Below are positions 2,717-9,472 of a DNA stretch of 33,633 nucleotides, piece after piece. The notes beneath the pieces are model-generated. The model ran no database searches. It had not been told where the DNA came from and worked only from the letters and a program-made list of their open reading frames with translations. Made by a program: the position numbers and the translations under genes. How positions within the stretch are numbered: the first letter of the stretch is position 1; every line of letters starts with the position of its first letter. Source of the stretch: Cycloclasticus sp. symbiont of Poecilosclerida sp. M (GTDB taxonomy: Bacteria; Pseudomonadota; Gammaproteobacteria; Methylococcales; Cycloclasticaceae). The DNA lies in assembly GCA_002101225.1 (NCBI GenBank), contig LWTN01000226.1, forward strand, positions 1 through 33,633. The letters run 5' to 3'.

Positions 2717-3601
2717 TTGTTCGGTATCATCATCCCCTGCTATAACTATGCGCATACTATACAAAGAGCGATAGACTCAGTGCTATAACAAACAGGAAGT
2801 GATTTTGAATTGCTGGTTGTTGATGATGGTTCAACGGATGATTCAGCCAATATAGTGCGCGGAATATTATCAAAGCAGAAAGGCTTTCGTTTTGTTCAGC
2901 ATAAAAACTCTGGGCCTGCTGCAACAAGAAATAGAGGTATTGATAAAACACAAGGACGATACTTAATATTTTTAGATGCAGATGATGAAATGATGCCACA
3001 GGCACTAGAACATTATCGATGTGCGTTAGATAGCAATGAAATCATCGGTATGCTTGCTGGTGGGCATATTTCAAAAACGCCACTAGGCGACAAAAAAGAG
3101 TCCACAATGCCAGCTATTCCTAAGAGTGCTGAGGCAAGGCTTAAAGCCTATTTATTGGACAAATCACTCGCACTTTCAAATGGCGCGGTCGCTATTTCTC
3201 GTGAGGTATTCGATGCTTATCGGTATCCAGAACAGTTTAGGGCAAGCGAAGGTATTTCCATGTTCGCTTTTATACTGGCAAACTTCGAGGTGTTGCGTAT
3301 TAAAGAGCCGCTGGCTGTTATTTATAAGCATAATGACAGTTTAAGGCACAATGTGACAGATGCCAGTGCTGCTGGTTTGCTGGTTGTTGATGAAGTGTTT
3401 GGGTTGGCAAGAATTCCAGCTCAATTTCAGCATTTAAAAATTAAATTTATGGCACAACGTAGCTTATCTCTTTTTAGAACACTCTTTATAGCAGGTAATG
3501 TCAAAGAGGCAAGAACCTTTTATCATAGAGCGGTGCGATTCAACCCACTTGTTATTTTCCGTGCATCGTATTTTATTCAGTACCTTCGGTCTTGGTTTTA
3601 G
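2717..3601 (+). pseudogene. family 2 glycosyltransferase interrupted by an in-frame TAA
   Basis: The reading frame after the upstream kinase stop encodes a GT2 N-terminus, FGIIIPCYNYAHTIQRAIDSVL, then meets TAA at 2786-2788. It continues in the same frame as QTGSDFELLVVDDGSTDD and stays open to 3601. The remainder is normal for GT-A enzymes: PAATRNRG, then FLDADDE as the DXD motif. The stop removes the first beta strand of the nucleotide-binding fold from any product started downstream, for example at TTG 2810. No ATG or GTG precedes the broken part; TTG 2717 is the only plausible start and has no well-placed ribosome site. The gene probably once added a core or outer-core sugar. Read-through, a sequencing error or a recent nonsense mutation would each explain it. 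Confidence 0.75.
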
Positions 3602-3633: not shown

Positions 3634-3639
3634 AGGGGG
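3634..3639 (+). promoter_or_regulatory. strong Shine-Dalgarno that decides the start of the next gene
   Basis: The run AGGGGG at 3634-3639 overlaps the first possible GTG (3639-3641) and sits 8 nt before a second GTG at 3648-3650. Only the second start has correct spacing, so it is preferred. Confidence 0.6.
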
Positions 3640-3647
3640 TGTCTATT

Positions 3648-4565
3648 GTGAAAGTATTAATGCTGGTTATTGATCAGCAAAGAATTCAGCTTGAAAGTTT
3701 GTATCAGAGCATTAACCAGAATTGCGATTTAGATTTACGTCGTTTAAATTCAAAAGAGCAGGCCAACCTTGCTCGCTATTTTAGAAAAAATATAGATTTA
3801 AAAAAGTACCAACGCATTATTCTTTTCGTGAGGTTCAAGTGGCTTTATAGACAAACAGCATTTACTAGACGGCTTCCAAACGTAGTTATGCTGGAACACG
3901 ATGCGTGGCAAAATTATTTTCCAGAGTCTAAATATGCAGGAAAATTTTCACGACATTATAAGGCAATGCCTTGGGTTAGAATTCTGGTTTCTGGTGCAAC
4001 ATTGGCTGAGAAGTTAAAGGGGGAAGGTTTTGACGCTCAATTTGTACCAAAAGGCTACGATCAATTATTGTTGAAGAATAAAGATGAAGAAAGAACCGTT
4101 GAGCTAGGCTTTATTGGAAGTATTCAACATGATACATACTGTAAGCGGCGGCTTTTTCTTGAGCAGATGAAGGAGGAAATGGGCTTGTTTATAACAAGAA
4201 CGGAGTCAGGGAGAGAATATCTGGATATGTTAAATAAGATAAAATTCTTTTTAAGTGCAGACATTGGGTTTGGTGAAAATATGGCGAAGAACTTTGAAGC
4301 AATGGCTTGTGGCTGTGTATTGTTGGCTTATGACCAAGGTGAAAAAGAGGCCAAAGCATTGGGGTTTGAAGATATGGTCAATGTGGTTTTGTATTCAAAT
4401 TCAACGGAGTTAAAAGAGAAGTTAGCGCTACTTAGGGGTGATTCTCAGCTTGCCATAAAGATTGAAAAAAAAGGGCAAGAATTAGCGGAGTCGACATTCT
4501 CCCTTGATATTGTGGGTAAAAGATTATTGATGCAATCAGCCCAAATCTTAGAGAAAAAGGTGTAA
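3648..4565 (+). CDS. GT-B glycosyltransferase, CgeB / Glyco_trans_1_2-like
   Basis: The protein has 305 residues from GTG 3648. The N-terminal half has no motif I recognise beyond alternating strand-helix character. The C-terminal half starts with VELGFIGSIQ and contains NFEAMACGCVLLAYDQGEKEA, the donor-binding region typical of GT-B enzymes, most like the short CgeB-type transferases. It probably adds a sugar to the LPS core, as the neighbours suggest, but donor and acceptor are unknown. It follows the broken GT2 gene by 46 bp and precedes waaG by about 110 bp. It is not the GT4-type WapH that Pseudomonas carries nearby. Confidence 0.7.
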   Translation: MKVLMLVIDQQRIQLESLYQSINQNCDLDLRRLNSKEQANLARYFRKNIDLKKYQRIILFVRFKWLYRQTAFTRRLPNVVMLEHDAWQNYFPESKYAGKFSRHYKAMPWVRILVSGATLAEKLKGEGFDAQFVPKGYDQLLLKNKDEERTVELGFIGSIQHDTYCKRRLFLEQMKEEMGLFITRTESGREYLDMLNKIKFFLSADIGFGENMAKNFEAMACGCVLLAYDQGEKEAKALGFEDMVNVVLYSNSTELKEKLALLRGDSQLAIKIEKKGQELAESTFSLDIVGKRLLMQSAQILEKKV

Positions 4566-4634: not shown

Positions 4635-4670
4635 ATGAAAATTATTAACCTCTTGTTTTCATGGTGTTGA
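4635..4670 (+). CDS. possible 11-codon leader ORF before waaG
   Basis: ATG 4635 opens MKIINLLFSWC and ends at TGA 4668-4670, five bases before the preferred waaG ATG at 4676. A purine run, AAGGG, lies at 4626-4630, four bases before the ATG, which is rather close for a Shine-Dalgarno site. waaG itself has no clear site, so coupling through this short frame is possible. It could equally be chance. Confidence 0.25.
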   Translation: MKIINLLFSWC

Positions 4671-4675
4671 AACGT

Positions 4676-5806
4676 ATGCGTTTAGCTTTTTCTCTGTATA
4701 AGTATTTTCCTTATGGCGGTTTAGCACGAGATTTTGTACGTATTGCGAAGCTGTGTATTGAGAAAGGGCACTCTGTTGACGTGTATGTGATGGAGTGGCA
4801 AGACGATCTTATATCTGAATTTAACGTGCATATATTGTCTTGCAAGGGCTGGAGTAATTACGCAAAAGTGGGCGATTTTCATAAGCGATTAAATGGAAAG
4901 TTAACAGCAGAAAACTATGACGCGGTGATTAGCTTTAACAAGATACCCAATGTGGACGTCTATTATGCCGCGGACCCTTGTTATATCGACCGATTCAAAA
5001 AGAAATCGTTGTTACAAATATTGAACCCACGATTTAGGTTTTATGCTGCCGTTGAGGAGGCTGTTTTTGGTAACAGCAGCAAGACGCTTTGTTTAATGAT
5101 TTCTGATATGCAAACAGCGTTGTTTAAAAGACACTATGGAATAACTGATGACAGGTTGGTTATGTTGCCGCCAGGGATCGACTCGGACAGGCGTAAGCCA
5201 AAGAATGCTGATGAAATACGGAAAAAGTTCCGTGTAGAGCATCAATTTGATGAGCAAAATCTGCTTATTTTAATGGTAGGGACGGGGTTTAAAACAAAAG
5301 GTGTAGATCGGGCTGTAAATGCCTTGGCATCACTGCCGGACGCACTACGTGATAAAGCACACTTAATTGTTGTGGGTGAAGGTGATTTTGCTTCGTACGA
5401 GCACTCCGCAGTTGAGAAAGGGGTGGGTAATCAAATTCACTTTATGGGTGGCCGCAGTGATGTGCCTGACTTTCTATTAAGCTGCGACATGTTGTTACAC
5501 CCAGCAAGAAAAGATAATACAGGCACGGTGATTTTAGAAGCGATGGTGGCGGGTTTGCCCATGTTGGTGACAAGTGTGTGTGGGTATGCAAAACATGTGC
5601 TGAAATCTGGAGCGGGTGAAGTATTGAATGCCTCCTTTTCTGAAGATGAATTAAATGAAAAATTACAAATAATGCTGTTCTCCGATAAAAAGGAGTGGAT
5701 AAGTAATGCGTTGAAATACGCAGAGGATGAAGATTTGTACAGTATGCCAGAGAAGGCAGTAGAGGCTATAGAGCGCGTGTTGGAGAGTCGACAAAATGCC
5801 GATTAA
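4676..5806 (+). CDS. waaG: LPS core glucosyltransferase I
   Basis: WaaG is a GT4 enzyme that transfers a hexose from a UDP-sugar to heptose II of the inner core on the cytoplasmic side of the membrane. The N-terminus MRLAFSLYKYFPYGGLARDF is diagnostic. The C-terminal domain has MVGTGFKTKGVDR, VVGEGDF and the donor-site stretch HPARKDNTGTVILEAMVAGLP with the EX7E pattern. I chose ATG 4676 because WaaG proteins begin MRLAF. An upstream in-frame ATG at 4661 would add five residues (MVLKR) and has no better ribosome site. The length is 376 residues, normal for the family. The 3' end overlaps waaP by 11 bp. Confidence 0.93.
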   Translation: MRLAFSLYKYFPYGGLARDFVRIAKLCIEKGHSVDVYVMEWQDDLISEFNVHILSCKGWSNYAKVGDFHKRLNGKLTAENYDAVISFNKIPNVDVYYAADPCYIDRFKKKSLLQILNPRFRFYAAVEEAVFGNSSKTLCLMISDMQTALFKRHYGITDDRLVMLPPGIDSDRRKPKNADEIRKKFRVEHQFDEQNLLILMVGTGFKTKGVDRAVNALASLPDALRDKAHLIVVGEGDFASYEHSAVEKGVGNQIHFMGGRSDVPDFLLSCDMLLHPARKDNTGTVILEAMVAGLPMLVTSVCGYAKHVLKSGAGEVLNASFSEDELNEKLQIMLFSDKKEWISNALKYAEDEDLYSMPEKAVEAIERVLESRQNAD

Positions 5807-6602
5807 AGTAACAGAACAGTTTAAATTAGCATGGGGTAAAGAAACCCCATCGTTTGATGATTTAATGGCGCTTGATGGTGAAATGTATCGACAAGTAGCG
5901 CGGCGGAGAACATTCAAGTTCACGCTAAAGAATAAAGATTACTTTGCAAAAATTCATAAAGGCGTGGGTTGGGGCGAGATAGCTAAAAACCTTTTACAAG
6001 GACGGTTGCCCGTTTTAGGGGCCGTTAATGAGTTTGATGCTATTAAGGCATTAACAGCGTTAGGCATTAAAACGATGACGTTAGTAGCGTATGGACAACG
6101 TGGCGATAACCTCGCTGAACTTGAATCGTTTGTTATTACCGAGTCTTTAGAGCCAGCGCTTAGTTTGGAAGATTTGTCGATGGATTGGGCGAGCAATAAG
6201 CCTAATTTAAGGCTGAAAAGAGCACTAATAAAATGTGTTGCAACGATAACGCGGCAATTGCACGATAATGGCATTAATCATAGAGACTTGTATATTTGTC
6301 ATTTTTTATTAAAAGAATCTGATTTGGAATCTGTTCAACAGGTAGAAGAATTACCATTGTATTTAATTGATTTACATCGGGTGCAGATGCGTAAAGAAGT
6401 ACCTGAAAGATGGCGAGTTAAAGACTTAGCGGCATTGTATTTTTCTAGTATGGGTATTGGTTTTACAAAGCGAGATTTTTATCGTTTTATCCAAGTATAT
6501 TCAGATAAGAGCTTAAGCGCGGAACTTAAATCGAATGAAAGTCGTTGGGCTAAGGTTTTTGCTAAAGGACAAAAACTAAATTTAAAGCCAATAAAAGATT
6601 AG
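5796..6602 (+). CDS. waaP: LPS heptose I kinase
   Basis: WaaP (RfaP) phosphorylates heptose I of the inner core with ATP, a modification that crosslinks LPS through divalent cations and is essential in Pseudomonas aeruginosa. The 268-residue length fits. The N-lobe has the lysine in YFAKIHKGVGWGEI. The catalytic loop is NHRDLYICHFLL with Asp164, and the metal-binding motif is LIDLHR. The start ATG 5796 lies inside the end of waaG, with an 11-bp overlap, so the two are probably co-translated. An inverted repeat spans its stop codon. Confidence 0.93.
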   Translation: MPIKVTEQFKLAWGKETPSFDDLMALDGEMYRQVARRRTFKFTLKNKDYFAKIHKGVGWGEIAKNLLQGRLPVLGAVNEFDAIKALTALGIKTMTLVAYGQRGDNLAELESFVITESLEPALSLEDLSMDWASNKPNLRLKRALIKCVATITRQLHDNGINHRDLYICHFLLKESDLESVQQVEELPLYLIDLHRVQMRKEVPERWRVKDLAALYFSSMGIGFTKRDFYRFIQVYSDKSLSAELKSNESRWAKVFAKGQKLNLKPIKD

Positions 6603-6619
6603 CTTTTTTTATTGGCTTT
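6584..6619 (+). other. perfect 13-bp inverted repeat across the waaP stop
   Basis: AAAGCCAATAAAA at 6584-6596 is matched exactly by its reverse complement at 6607-6619, with a 10-nt loop containing the TAG stop. The 3' arm is T-rich, but no U-tract follows on the plus strand, so it is a poor intrinsic terminator in that direction. It may slow 3' decay of the waaG-waaP message. Confidence 0.5.
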
Positions 6620-6721
6620 GTGAGGTATGGCTAAGGGGCTCTTTGTGTCAAAGTGTAATGGCTTAGCTTTCGTTGCTTCTCTGGAATTGAGTTTAAAAAT
6701 CCGGATGATTTAATTTTAAAA

Positions 6722-6745
6722 GCTTCATCGTGAAGCATGTTTTTT
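6722..6745 (+). terminator. candidate Rho-independent terminator after waaP
   Basis: GCTTCA, a TCG loop and TGAAGC form a six-base-pair hairpin at 6722-6736, followed closely by six T residues at 6740-6745. The stem is short. It would separate the waaP transcript from the InaA-like gene, which has its own candidate promoter 40 bp further on. Confidence 0.5.
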
Positions 6746-6780
6746 AATGTGGTATTTAATCGAACGACATGAAATATACC

Positions 6781-6797
6781 TCGATATAATGAATCGA
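6781..6797 (+). promoter_or_regulatory. candidate promoter with a dyad around the -10 box
   Basis: A perfect TATAAT lies at 6785-6790, about 44 bp before the InaA-like start. It sits inside the inverted repeat TCGAT (6781-6785) and ATCGA (6793-6797), a geometry that could let a dimeric regulator block the -10. No consensus -35 is seen at 16-18 bp spacing, which would suit an activator-dependent promoter. Confidence 0.4.
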
Positions 6798-6833
6798 AAA
6801 GTAACTCTCAATGTATGGGTTAAGAAGTAAGTG

Positions 6834-7598
6834 ATGCGGTATATAGCTGAAAAATGGCGAGAGATACTCGTTTTTAATAATTTAGACTCGCATGAGAAAA
6901 TATGGGCTTTACAAGCTGAGTGGTTTGAAGAACCTAACCACTGCCGCGGTGGCTGGAGCGGTGTTTCTCGGATAGAACTAAAATTGCCCGAAGGCGGTAT
7001 TGTTGGCGCCTTTCTTAAGCGTCAGGAAAACCATGTTACTCGAACGCTTCGAAACCCAATAAAAGGGGTTCTTACTTTTTCTAGAGAGTTTGAGGTTCTC
7101 AGAGTTTTCAATAAACATAAAATTCCATCACTAGACTTAATCCTGTTTGATCAATGGGAAGAGAGTGGCTGTCGACGTGGGTGTATTATCACGGAAGAGT
7201 TAGCTGGCTATCTCCCTTTATCATCAGAAGAATACCGGATGGGTGGCGATTTTTTGACAAGTGCCGACCAGAAGGCGCGGTTATTTGTGAAAATAGCCGC
7301 ACTGATGCATTTGACGCATCAGCAAGGTTTTAAGCACGGTTGTTTTTATCCCAAGCATATTTTTGTAAAACAGCTACCAGAAGGCGATGTTGATTTACGC
7401 GTTATAGACTTGGAAAAAGTGAAGAAGTTTTTTTGTAAAAAACGCGCGGCTTTTAGAGACTTGGACACTTTATTGCGCCATTCGAACGGCTGGAGCGAAG
7501 ATGATAAGTTGGCTTTTTTTAAGGTATATCAAGGCGAATATGTCTTAAAAGAGCTGTCTAAACAGCTTTGGAAGAAACTTTGTAATAGAAAAAAATGA
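6834..7598 (+). CDS. InaA / WapQ-like lipopolysaccharide kinase family protein
   Basis: This 254-residue protein belongs to the Kdo/WaaP kinase superfamily, in the InaA-like branch that occurs in Pseudomonas core loci. The N-lobe includes VGAFLKRQENHVTRTLRNP, which resembles the glycine/basic loop of WaaP, then a conserved FSREFEVL. The expected catalytic loop reads FKHGCFYPKHIFVK, so the HRD-type Asp is replaced by Cys170. The metal-binding VIDLEK with Asp192 is kept. I chose ATG 6834 because AAGAAG at 6822-6827 is well spaced from it; a GTG one codon earlier is also possible. It may phosphorylate core sugars by a variant mechanism or act as a pseudokinase. InaA of Pseudomonas is reported as weak-acid inducible. 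Confidence 0.72.
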   Translation: MRYIAEKWREILVFNNLDSHEKIWALQAEWFEEPNHCRGGWSGVSRIELKLPEGGIVGAFLKRQENHVTRTLRNPIKGVLTFSREFEVLRVFNKHKIPSLDLILFDQWEESGCRRGCIITEELAGYLPLSSEEYRMGGDFLTSADQKARLFVKIAALMHLTHQQGFKHGCFYPKHIFVKQLPEGDVDLRVIDLEKVKKFFCKKRAAFRDLDTLLRHSNGWSEDDKLAFFKVYQGEYVLKELSKQLWKKLCNRKK

Positions 7599-7732
7599 TA
7601 AGGCAGCGTTGGTGAGGTTACAGCCTTTGAAAGCTAGTTATATAAACAGCTAATTCAGTCTTTTTGAATCTTGTAAAATACAACAATGATGCTGCATTTA
7701 GGTGGCAAAATAGTTTATAAAAAAAGGTATTT

Positions 7733-9472
7733 ATGAAAGTTTTAGGTTTATCTGGTGCGGTTAATCATGACGCTTCTGCTGCTTTGTATGTGGACGGAAA
7801 ATTAGTAGCAGCGGTTGAAGAAGAACGTTTTTTGCGCGATAAACACGCTAAAGGAAAATTTCCATATGAGTCGACCAAATTTTGCTTAGATTACGCAGGT
7901 ATACAGCCGAGTGAAGTTGATGTGGTTGCATTTCCGTACGCAAAAATAGGTCTCTCTAGCCCCGCGCGTTGGCACTACGCAAAGAGGCATTGGTATGCAC
8001 CAGATCGTGCGCTGATGGCATTGTTTAATGGCAATAGGTGTTACGAACGTAATTTCCAAAGTGTCATGAAGATGCTGGATGACCTTGGTATCGACTCACA
8101 ACGCGTTAAATTTGTACCGGTTGAGCATCATTTGGCTCACGCGAGTAGCGCCTATCATTTAAGCGGCTTTAAGGAAAAGACAGCTATTCTTGGCATTGAT
8201 GGAAAAGGTGAATACGCGACGACTTTTTTTGGTTACGGCGAAAATGGGAAAATTCATAAAATAAAAGAATTTTATGACCCAGACTCTTTGGGGGGCGTTT
8301 ATGGCGCTATTACCGAGTTTTTAGGGTTCGAGATGCTAGATGGCGAGTTCAAAGTAATGGGAATGGCGCCCTACGGTGATCCCAAACGTTTTGATTTCTC
8401 ACGCCTCATTGATACAGACGACAAGGATTTTCGTGTCAATACAAAGTTGGTTAACTGCTTGGGTTTGCGACGTTATAAAGAAGATGGCAAGGGCTACTTC
8501 TTTAGCCCGAAATTAATTGACTGGTTAGGCCCAAAGCGGGAAGGCGATGAAATTGATGATCCGTATATTGATTATGCAGCGAGCATTCAAGCTCTGTTAG
8601 AAAAAGTGGCTTTAGGCCTGATTGATACTTACTTAAGCGATACGCTTAGGGAGACGGGCAAGCTTTGTTATGCGGGTGGTGTTGCGTTAAATGTTAAGTT
8701 GAATCAGAGAATTATTGCGCGTGATGATGTGAAAGAGCTTTTTGTGCAACCAGCAGCCAGCGATGCTGGGACTGCAATAGGCGCGGCGAGCTATGCAGCA
8801 CAAATGATGGGTGAGCGTGTTGAGAAAATGGAGCATGCCTACCTTGGCCCTAAATATACAAATGAGGATTGTATTCAAGCGTGTTTAGATCATCCTAATA
8901 AGCCTGAATACGAAGTGTTAAGGAATACCACTGAATACACTGCGAAGCTTTTAGCAGATGGTAATCCTATTTCATGGTTTCAAGGGCGTATGGAATTTGG
9001 CCCTCGTGCCTTAGGTAACCGAAGTATTATCGGTAACCCAAGTAGCCGTGGTGTGGCCGACAGAATTAACGCACAAATCAAATATCGTGAACGCTGGAGA
9101 CCATTTTGTCCGAGTATATTAGATACGGTGGCGGAAGATATTTTGCAAACGGACCATCCAAGTCCTTATATGACGTTTACTTTTGACGTGGCTGAAAGTT
9201 GGAAAAAGCGTATCCCAGAAGTGGTTCATAAAGATGGAACGGCACGAGCGCAAATAGTGACGGAGAAGACAAATCCACGTTATTACGATTTACTCAAAGA
9301 AGTAGAAAAGTTAACGGGTAATGGTGTGGTGTTAAACACTTCGCTTAATAGGCGCGGTGAACCGATGGTTTGCTCACCGACAGACGCTCTGAATATGTTT
9401 TATGGTTCGGATCTAGAATATTTGGTGATGGAAGATATTCTCGTTAAGAAGGTGGTAAAAGGAGAGAGTTGA
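7733..9472 (+). CDS. wapO: LPS core carbamoyltransferase, NodU/CmcH family
   Basis: This enzyme uses carbamoyl phosphate and ATP to carbamoylate a hydroxyl. In Pseudomonas the neighbour of the core kinases (PA5005, WapO) carbamoylates heptose II, and the context here supports the same role. The 579 residues show the N-terminal Kae1-like domain with LGLSGAVNHDASAAL, AVEEERFLRDKH, the metal-binding HHLAHASSAYH (His132, His133, His137), GIDGKGEYATT, and YAGGVALNVKLN with ASDAGTAIGAA. The C-terminal carbamoyl-transfer domain follows, with FQGRMEFGPRALGNRSI, RERWRPFCPS and NTSLNRRGEPMV. ATG 7733 has an AAAAAGG site 5 nt upstream. The last 29 bp overlap the convergent kinase gene. Confidence 0.88.
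   Translation: MKVLGLSGAVNHDASAALYVDGKLVAAVEEERFLRDKHAKGKFPYESTKFCLDYAGIQPSEVDVVAFPYAKIGLSSPARWHYAKRHWYAPDRALMALFNGNRCYERNFQSVMKMLDDLGIDSQRVKFVPVEHHLAHASSAYHLSGFKEKTAILGIDGKGEYATTFFGYGENGKIHKIKEFYDPDSLGGVYGAITEFLGFEMLDGEFKVMGMAPYGDPKRFDFSRLIDTDDKDFRVNTKLVNCLGLRRYKEDGKGYFFSPKLIDWLGPKREGDEIDDPYIDYAASIQALLEKVALGLIDTYLSDTLRETGKLCYAGGVALNVKLNQRIIARDDVKELFVQPAASDAGTAIGAASYAAQMMGERVEKMEHAYLGPKYTNEDCIQACLDHPNKPEYEVLRNTTEYTAKLLADGNPISWFQGRMEFGPRALGNRSIIGNPSSRGVADRINAQIKYRERWRPFCPSILDTVAEDILQTDHPSPYMTFTFDVAESWKKRIPEVVHKDGTARAQIVTEKTNPRYYDLLKEVEKLTGNGVVLNTSLNRRGEPMVCSPTDALNMFYGSDLEYLVMEDILVKKVVKGES

Follow-up and report, generated by a model that had tools for sequence, protein, structure and literature searches.

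Contig LWTN01000226.1 of the draft genome of Cycloclasticus sp. symbiont of Poecilosclerida sp. M (GCA_002101225.1) carries a GT2 glycosyltransferase gene with a TAA codon in its frame. Does this codon mark the loss of the gene, an on/off switch in LPS structure or a wrong base? These three options had been left side by side by the first-pass annotation of the window (the whole 33,633-nt stretch analysed here). We find that the gene, which lies among the accessory (variable) genes of an LPS-core cluster, once specified an inverting GT2 glycosyltransferase and is now probably a pseudogene. The stop after 23 residues and the loss of a catalytic residue are together better explained by a pseudogene than by an error at one base, phase switching or readthrough, and of the three options it is the loss of the gene that is borne out.

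Reading frame and nonsense codon

Read from TTG 2717, the frame encodes LFGIIIPCYNYAHTIQRAIDSVL, meets TAA at 2786–2788 and resumes with QTGSDFELLVVDDGSTDDSA..., after which it stays open through 3598 and ends at TAG 3599–3601. The part after the nonsense codon had been described as 271 open codons; it is indeed open, with 270 sense codons, the higher figure including the final stop. The features of the gene are as follows:

2717–3601, + strand: probable GT2 glycosyltransferase pseudogene, beginning at a weak TTG and ending at TAG 3599–3601
2717–2785, + strand: 23-codon N-terminal stub 5′ of the nonsense codon, corresponding to the first GT-A strand and helix (PF00535 match)
2786–2788, + strand: in-frame TAA nonsense codon (sequence and homologue alignment)
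2794–2812, + strand: possible restart site, AGGAAG (2794–2799) 10 nt before TTG 2810 (sequence and pairing with the 16S tail)
2975–2983, + strand: DXD motif (D-A-D), kept (LDADD in the translation, and alignment)
3251–3253, + strand: second lesion, where the catalytic base of the xED motif is replaced by Gly (GGT) (alignment and TarS profile)

The TAA lies inside a single gene, as had been proposed, because PF00535 is matched on both sides of it: the 23 codons 5′ of the stop cover model positions 2–21 (E 5e-4, which is under the cut-off because the piece is so short), and the part 3′ of it covers positions 31–166 (E 2.8e-19, 70.1 bits against a cut-off of 23.3). By descent the gene belongs to GT2, with the post-stop part above the PF00535 cut-off and the DXD motif noticed at first reading present within LDADD. 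It shares with inverting GT2s of the GT-A fold, such as TarS and SpsA, the N-terminal IIIPCYNYA strand, the VVDDGSTDD sequence and the DXD motif, and one of its loops aligns with the xED loop of these enzymes. Unlike TarS/SpsA-type GT2s, it is interrupted by a nonsense codon after residue 23, within the first-strand region, and at 3251–3253 its catalytic-base Asp is replaced by Gly. The position of the TAA is itself variable among relatives, and four homologues from other genomes as well as the paralogue in the same genome have sense codons there.

Recoding of TAA as a sense codon was rejected, in agreement with the original reading, because TAA is the commonest stop of the 28 scored genes in the window (TAA 15, TGA 7, TAG 6). 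A tRNA scan of the window found none, a result with no bearing on suppressors. Between 2300 and 4800, promoter-like sites were not in excess (4, with 6.6 expected from shuffled sequences), and three terminator-like sites were found where 1.5 were expected, none of them at the TAA. The frame also contains a 29-nt direct repeat (2798–2826 and 3365–3393, 83% identical), which we take to be due to chance.

The start of the frame was considered separately. TTG 2717 lies 6 nt after the stop of the upstream kinase gene and has a Shine-Dalgarno pairing of –0.4 kcal/mol; several clearly intact genes of the window score no better, and so a weak start alone proves nothing. In the corresponding operons of two genomes from other families (G027 and G029), the ATG of the GT2 homologue overlaps the kinase stop, and the window has no such ATG. 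Its start is not a proven lesion.

A second lesion at the catalytic base

GT2 homologues were gathered by a search of related genomes, and their frames were extracted by tblastn and then aligned, giving 31 rows besides the window after duplicate loci were dropped (L032 = L064, L004 = L063). At the column of codon 3251–3253, Asp is found in 29 of the 31, so that the gene can no longer be called otherwise intact or free of further damage. The two rows lacking Asp (L022 and L029) read TTS at this column and look like GT2s of the phosphate-acceptor or dolichol-phosphate type. As described in PMC7185993, the GT2-LpsRelated class, the dolichol-phosphate type and some other classes are without the xED-Asp, which is otherwise nearly always conserved in inverting families. 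The ED pair is kept in all five close homologues, namely those in G118 (a Methylococcales symbiont of Hymedesmia, 62% identical to the window gene over 262 residues), G027 (42%), G074 (40%) and G029 (34%), and the only near paralogue in the genome itself (G000:C202; L037 714–1549, 38%). A changed base need not always mean loss, given GT2-LpsRelated, but the close relatives in this case all keep the Asp.

We also compared an HMM of the subfamily (five rows, including the window's own, with the alignment cut to the catalytic part) with solved structures, and codon 3251–3253 aligned with Asp178 of TarS. This residue is the proposed catalytic base of TarS, in which activity falls severely with D178N and is abolished by the adjacent change E177A (PMC5156392). 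The equivalent Asp acts as the base in SpsA, ExoM and AglD, and its replacement in ExoM leads to complete loss of activity (PMC2877612). By analogy with the family, Gly at 3251–3253 would be expected to cost the enzyme its activity.

Relative to the intact genes in G118, G027, G074 and G029, the window gene thus carries two lesions, as a pseudogene would, both of them read from one assembly (a draft of 244 contigs and 2.32 Mb, estimated to be 99.99% complete). It follows that a sense codon at 2786–2788 alone would not make the gene intact. Reads showing such a codon had been put forward as a way of removing the finding; with the second lesion, they are no longer sufficient to refute gene loss. 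The annotation is accordingly corrected from an intact gene with one suspect base to a pseudogene with two lesions.

As to consequences, translation would end after 23 residues, and the remaining frame, being without the xED catalytic-base Asp as well, would yield no active enzyme. One sugar would then presumably be missing from the LPS core. The weak restart at TTG 2810 may hold ribosomes on the message and so limit polarity on the core genes downstream.

Towards the C terminus, the helices of this GT2 subfamily (approximately 3467–3578 in the window) matched TPR proteins in a profile search of the PDB, and the tail may be TPR-like. A structure prediction for the intact Hymedesmia-symbiont homologue from a two-row alignment had a mean pLDDT of 37.

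The LPS-core neighbourhood and the age of the probable loss

The gene lies between two parts of an LPS-core cluster, with the following neighbours:

243–1259: heptosyltransferase-family gene, 5′ of the kinase gene
1256–2710, + strand: two-part Kdo/WaaP-type kinase, 484 aa, upstream of the GT2 gene
3639–4565, + strand: Glyco_trans_1_2 glycosyltransferase, open, the second gene of the variable cassette
4661–9472, + strand: conserved downstream LPS-core block with a GT4 glycosyltransferase, two WaaP-family kinases and a carbamoyltransferase

The heptosyltransferase–kinase and GT4–kinase–kinase parts occur in the same order in two other genomes of the genus (G004 and G001), and in G004 the second part is also followed by the carbamoyltransferase. 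Different genes lie between these conserved parts: an ABC transporter, a protein that weakly matches PMT_2, a methyltransferase and a glycosyltransferase in G004, and a GT4 and a weak O-antigen-ligase match in G001, where two genes were scanned. At an E-value of 1e-25 or better, the GT2 gene has no orthologue in any of the 17 genus mates, and matches at this level were found in five of the 301 genomes of the order, its own included. Taken together, the differing genes and the lack of an orthologue in the genus place the broken GT2 in a variable cassette. Intact homologues (G118, G027, G074 and G029) occur in other families of the order. The adjacent Glyco_trans_1_2 gene had a match in only one of the 21 genomes searched, its own, and its open frame indicates that not all of the cassette is dead.

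In G027 and G029, the kinase and GT2 homologues adjoin with overlapping stop and start codons (L062 and L063), in the same order as in the window. Unlike the window gene, the GT2s of these pairs are intact and have an ATG start that overlaps the stop of the kinase gene. This arrangement supports an old kinase–GT2 operon pair and suggests that the two genes may form a conserved functional pair. The Hymedesmia-symbiont GT2 (L032/L064) likewise has an intact frame and keeps the ED, and it lies in another neighbourhood, not beside a kinase gene.

To judge how far the gene has eroded, we counted departures from columns that are uniform among the other five close sequences. The window gene departs at 4 of 49 such columns, one of them being the catalytic Gly; the same count gives 3 of 48 for G118, 4 of 49 for G027, 3 of 48 for G074, 9 of 54 for G029 and 11 of 56 for the paralogue. 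The window is thus close to its nearest homologues and shows no general erosion, which tells against an old pseudogene. Across the 270 codons, stop-making changes account for 4.3% of all single-base changes, so that after 30 substitutions since the loss the frame would still be open about a quarter of the time (indels ignored). Differences from the 62% orthologue number 90, 51 and 144 at codon positions 1, 2 and 3 over the 270 codons, a distribution which fits past purifying selection and cannot date the loss. A recent loss of the gene would fit the absence of any further stop or frameshift.

Competing explanations and decay elsewhere in the genome

The strongest competitor is a consensus or base-calling error, with a full-length protein made in reality. 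The assembly is a draft in 244 contigs with a run of N elsewhere, and the frame otherwise looks constrained. Even so, we consider an error unlikely, as it would leave the independent second lesion, at the catalytic base, in place and the other scored genes in the window are open frames. Alternatively, an intact allele might be carried by part of the population and the dead one assembled, with the locus being polymorphic. Assemblies collapse strains, and the open frame looks recent, both of which would suit such a mixture; against it, no second allele was seen in the assembly, and a DNA search of the genome found one copy of the gene at that identity, on contig 226. We regard this explanation as quite unlikely.

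Two further explanations are highly improbable. Programmed readthrough or an internal restart might in principle give a working enzyme, and AGGAAG, 10 nt upstream of TTG 2810, has a pairing energy of –5.0 kcal/mol with the 16S tail. Yet the restart product, if it were expressed, would have a GT-A fold missing its first strand, no relative has the stop, 15 of the 28 scored genes normally end in TAA and the catalytic base is gone from either product. On/off switching of a phase-variable contingency gene is no more credible. LPS glycosyltransferases are classic contingency genes, and the C202 paralogue, which is frameshifted at an A8 tract (891–898 of L037) and also holds a G8 tract (804–811 of L037), has tracts of the slipping kind. 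At 2786, by contrast, there is neither a repeat nor a homopolymer, to our knowledge a substitution-type nonsense codon is no known switch, and the second lesion is a substitution too. Tandem Repeats Finder reported only one two-copy 8-mer between 2300 and 4700 (3370–3385) and none at the stop, and the repeats found gave no sign of an invertible segment. The suggestion of phase-like variation is therefore abandoned: neither a tract nor an invertible segment lies at the TAA, and with the catalytic base changed the enzyme would be impaired whatever the codon at 2786.

We therefore return to the pseudogene. Pseudogenes of this kind are common in bacteria, and the case is one of ordinary gene decay. 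The decay appears recent, which would fit a host-associated lineage that is rich in mobile elements and has a second GT2 broken. When the genus was searched with PF00535 (103 matches in 18 genomes), an internal stop occurred in only two of the matches listed, both in this genome: the window GT2 and the C202 paralogue. The corresponding search with PF00534 (137 matches) found one with a stop, in G007. This genome has three PF00534 matches, the second lowest number among the ten more complete genomes, and it is not short of GT2 matches by the standard of the genus. That the two GT2 genes of the same subfamily were lost independently through selection for a simpler surface glycan in an animal host, and not by mere drift, seems to us rather unlikely. 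If the organism is a symbiont, as it appears to be, the locus is one further small example of a host-associated bacterium losing a surface-glycan gene and leaves the general picture unchanged. A literature search on pseudogenes in Cycloclasticus symbionts returned no match.

Other signs of a host-associated lifestyle were found across the genome. It has ten matches to the rve transposase domain, the most of the 18 genus genomes, and 41 ankyrin matches, compared with none in 16 of its 17 genus mates and four in the remaining one; transposases and ankyrins in such abundance are as expected of a host-associated lineage. Cycloclasticus symbionts and methanotrophs of the G118 kind are reported to live in the same sponges, with eukaryote-like proteins common to both (PMC6474228). 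When the ankyrin DNA was searched in four genomes, no match was found. On the contig of the paralogue, a frame at the very start (L037 2–319) looks like the end of what we take to be an IS30-type transposase, and a Pfam scan of this frame gave no match. Another contig (G000:C190; L098 1–11322) consists over its whole length of an array of ankyrin-repeat frames, several of them short or interrupted, and includes a run of N.
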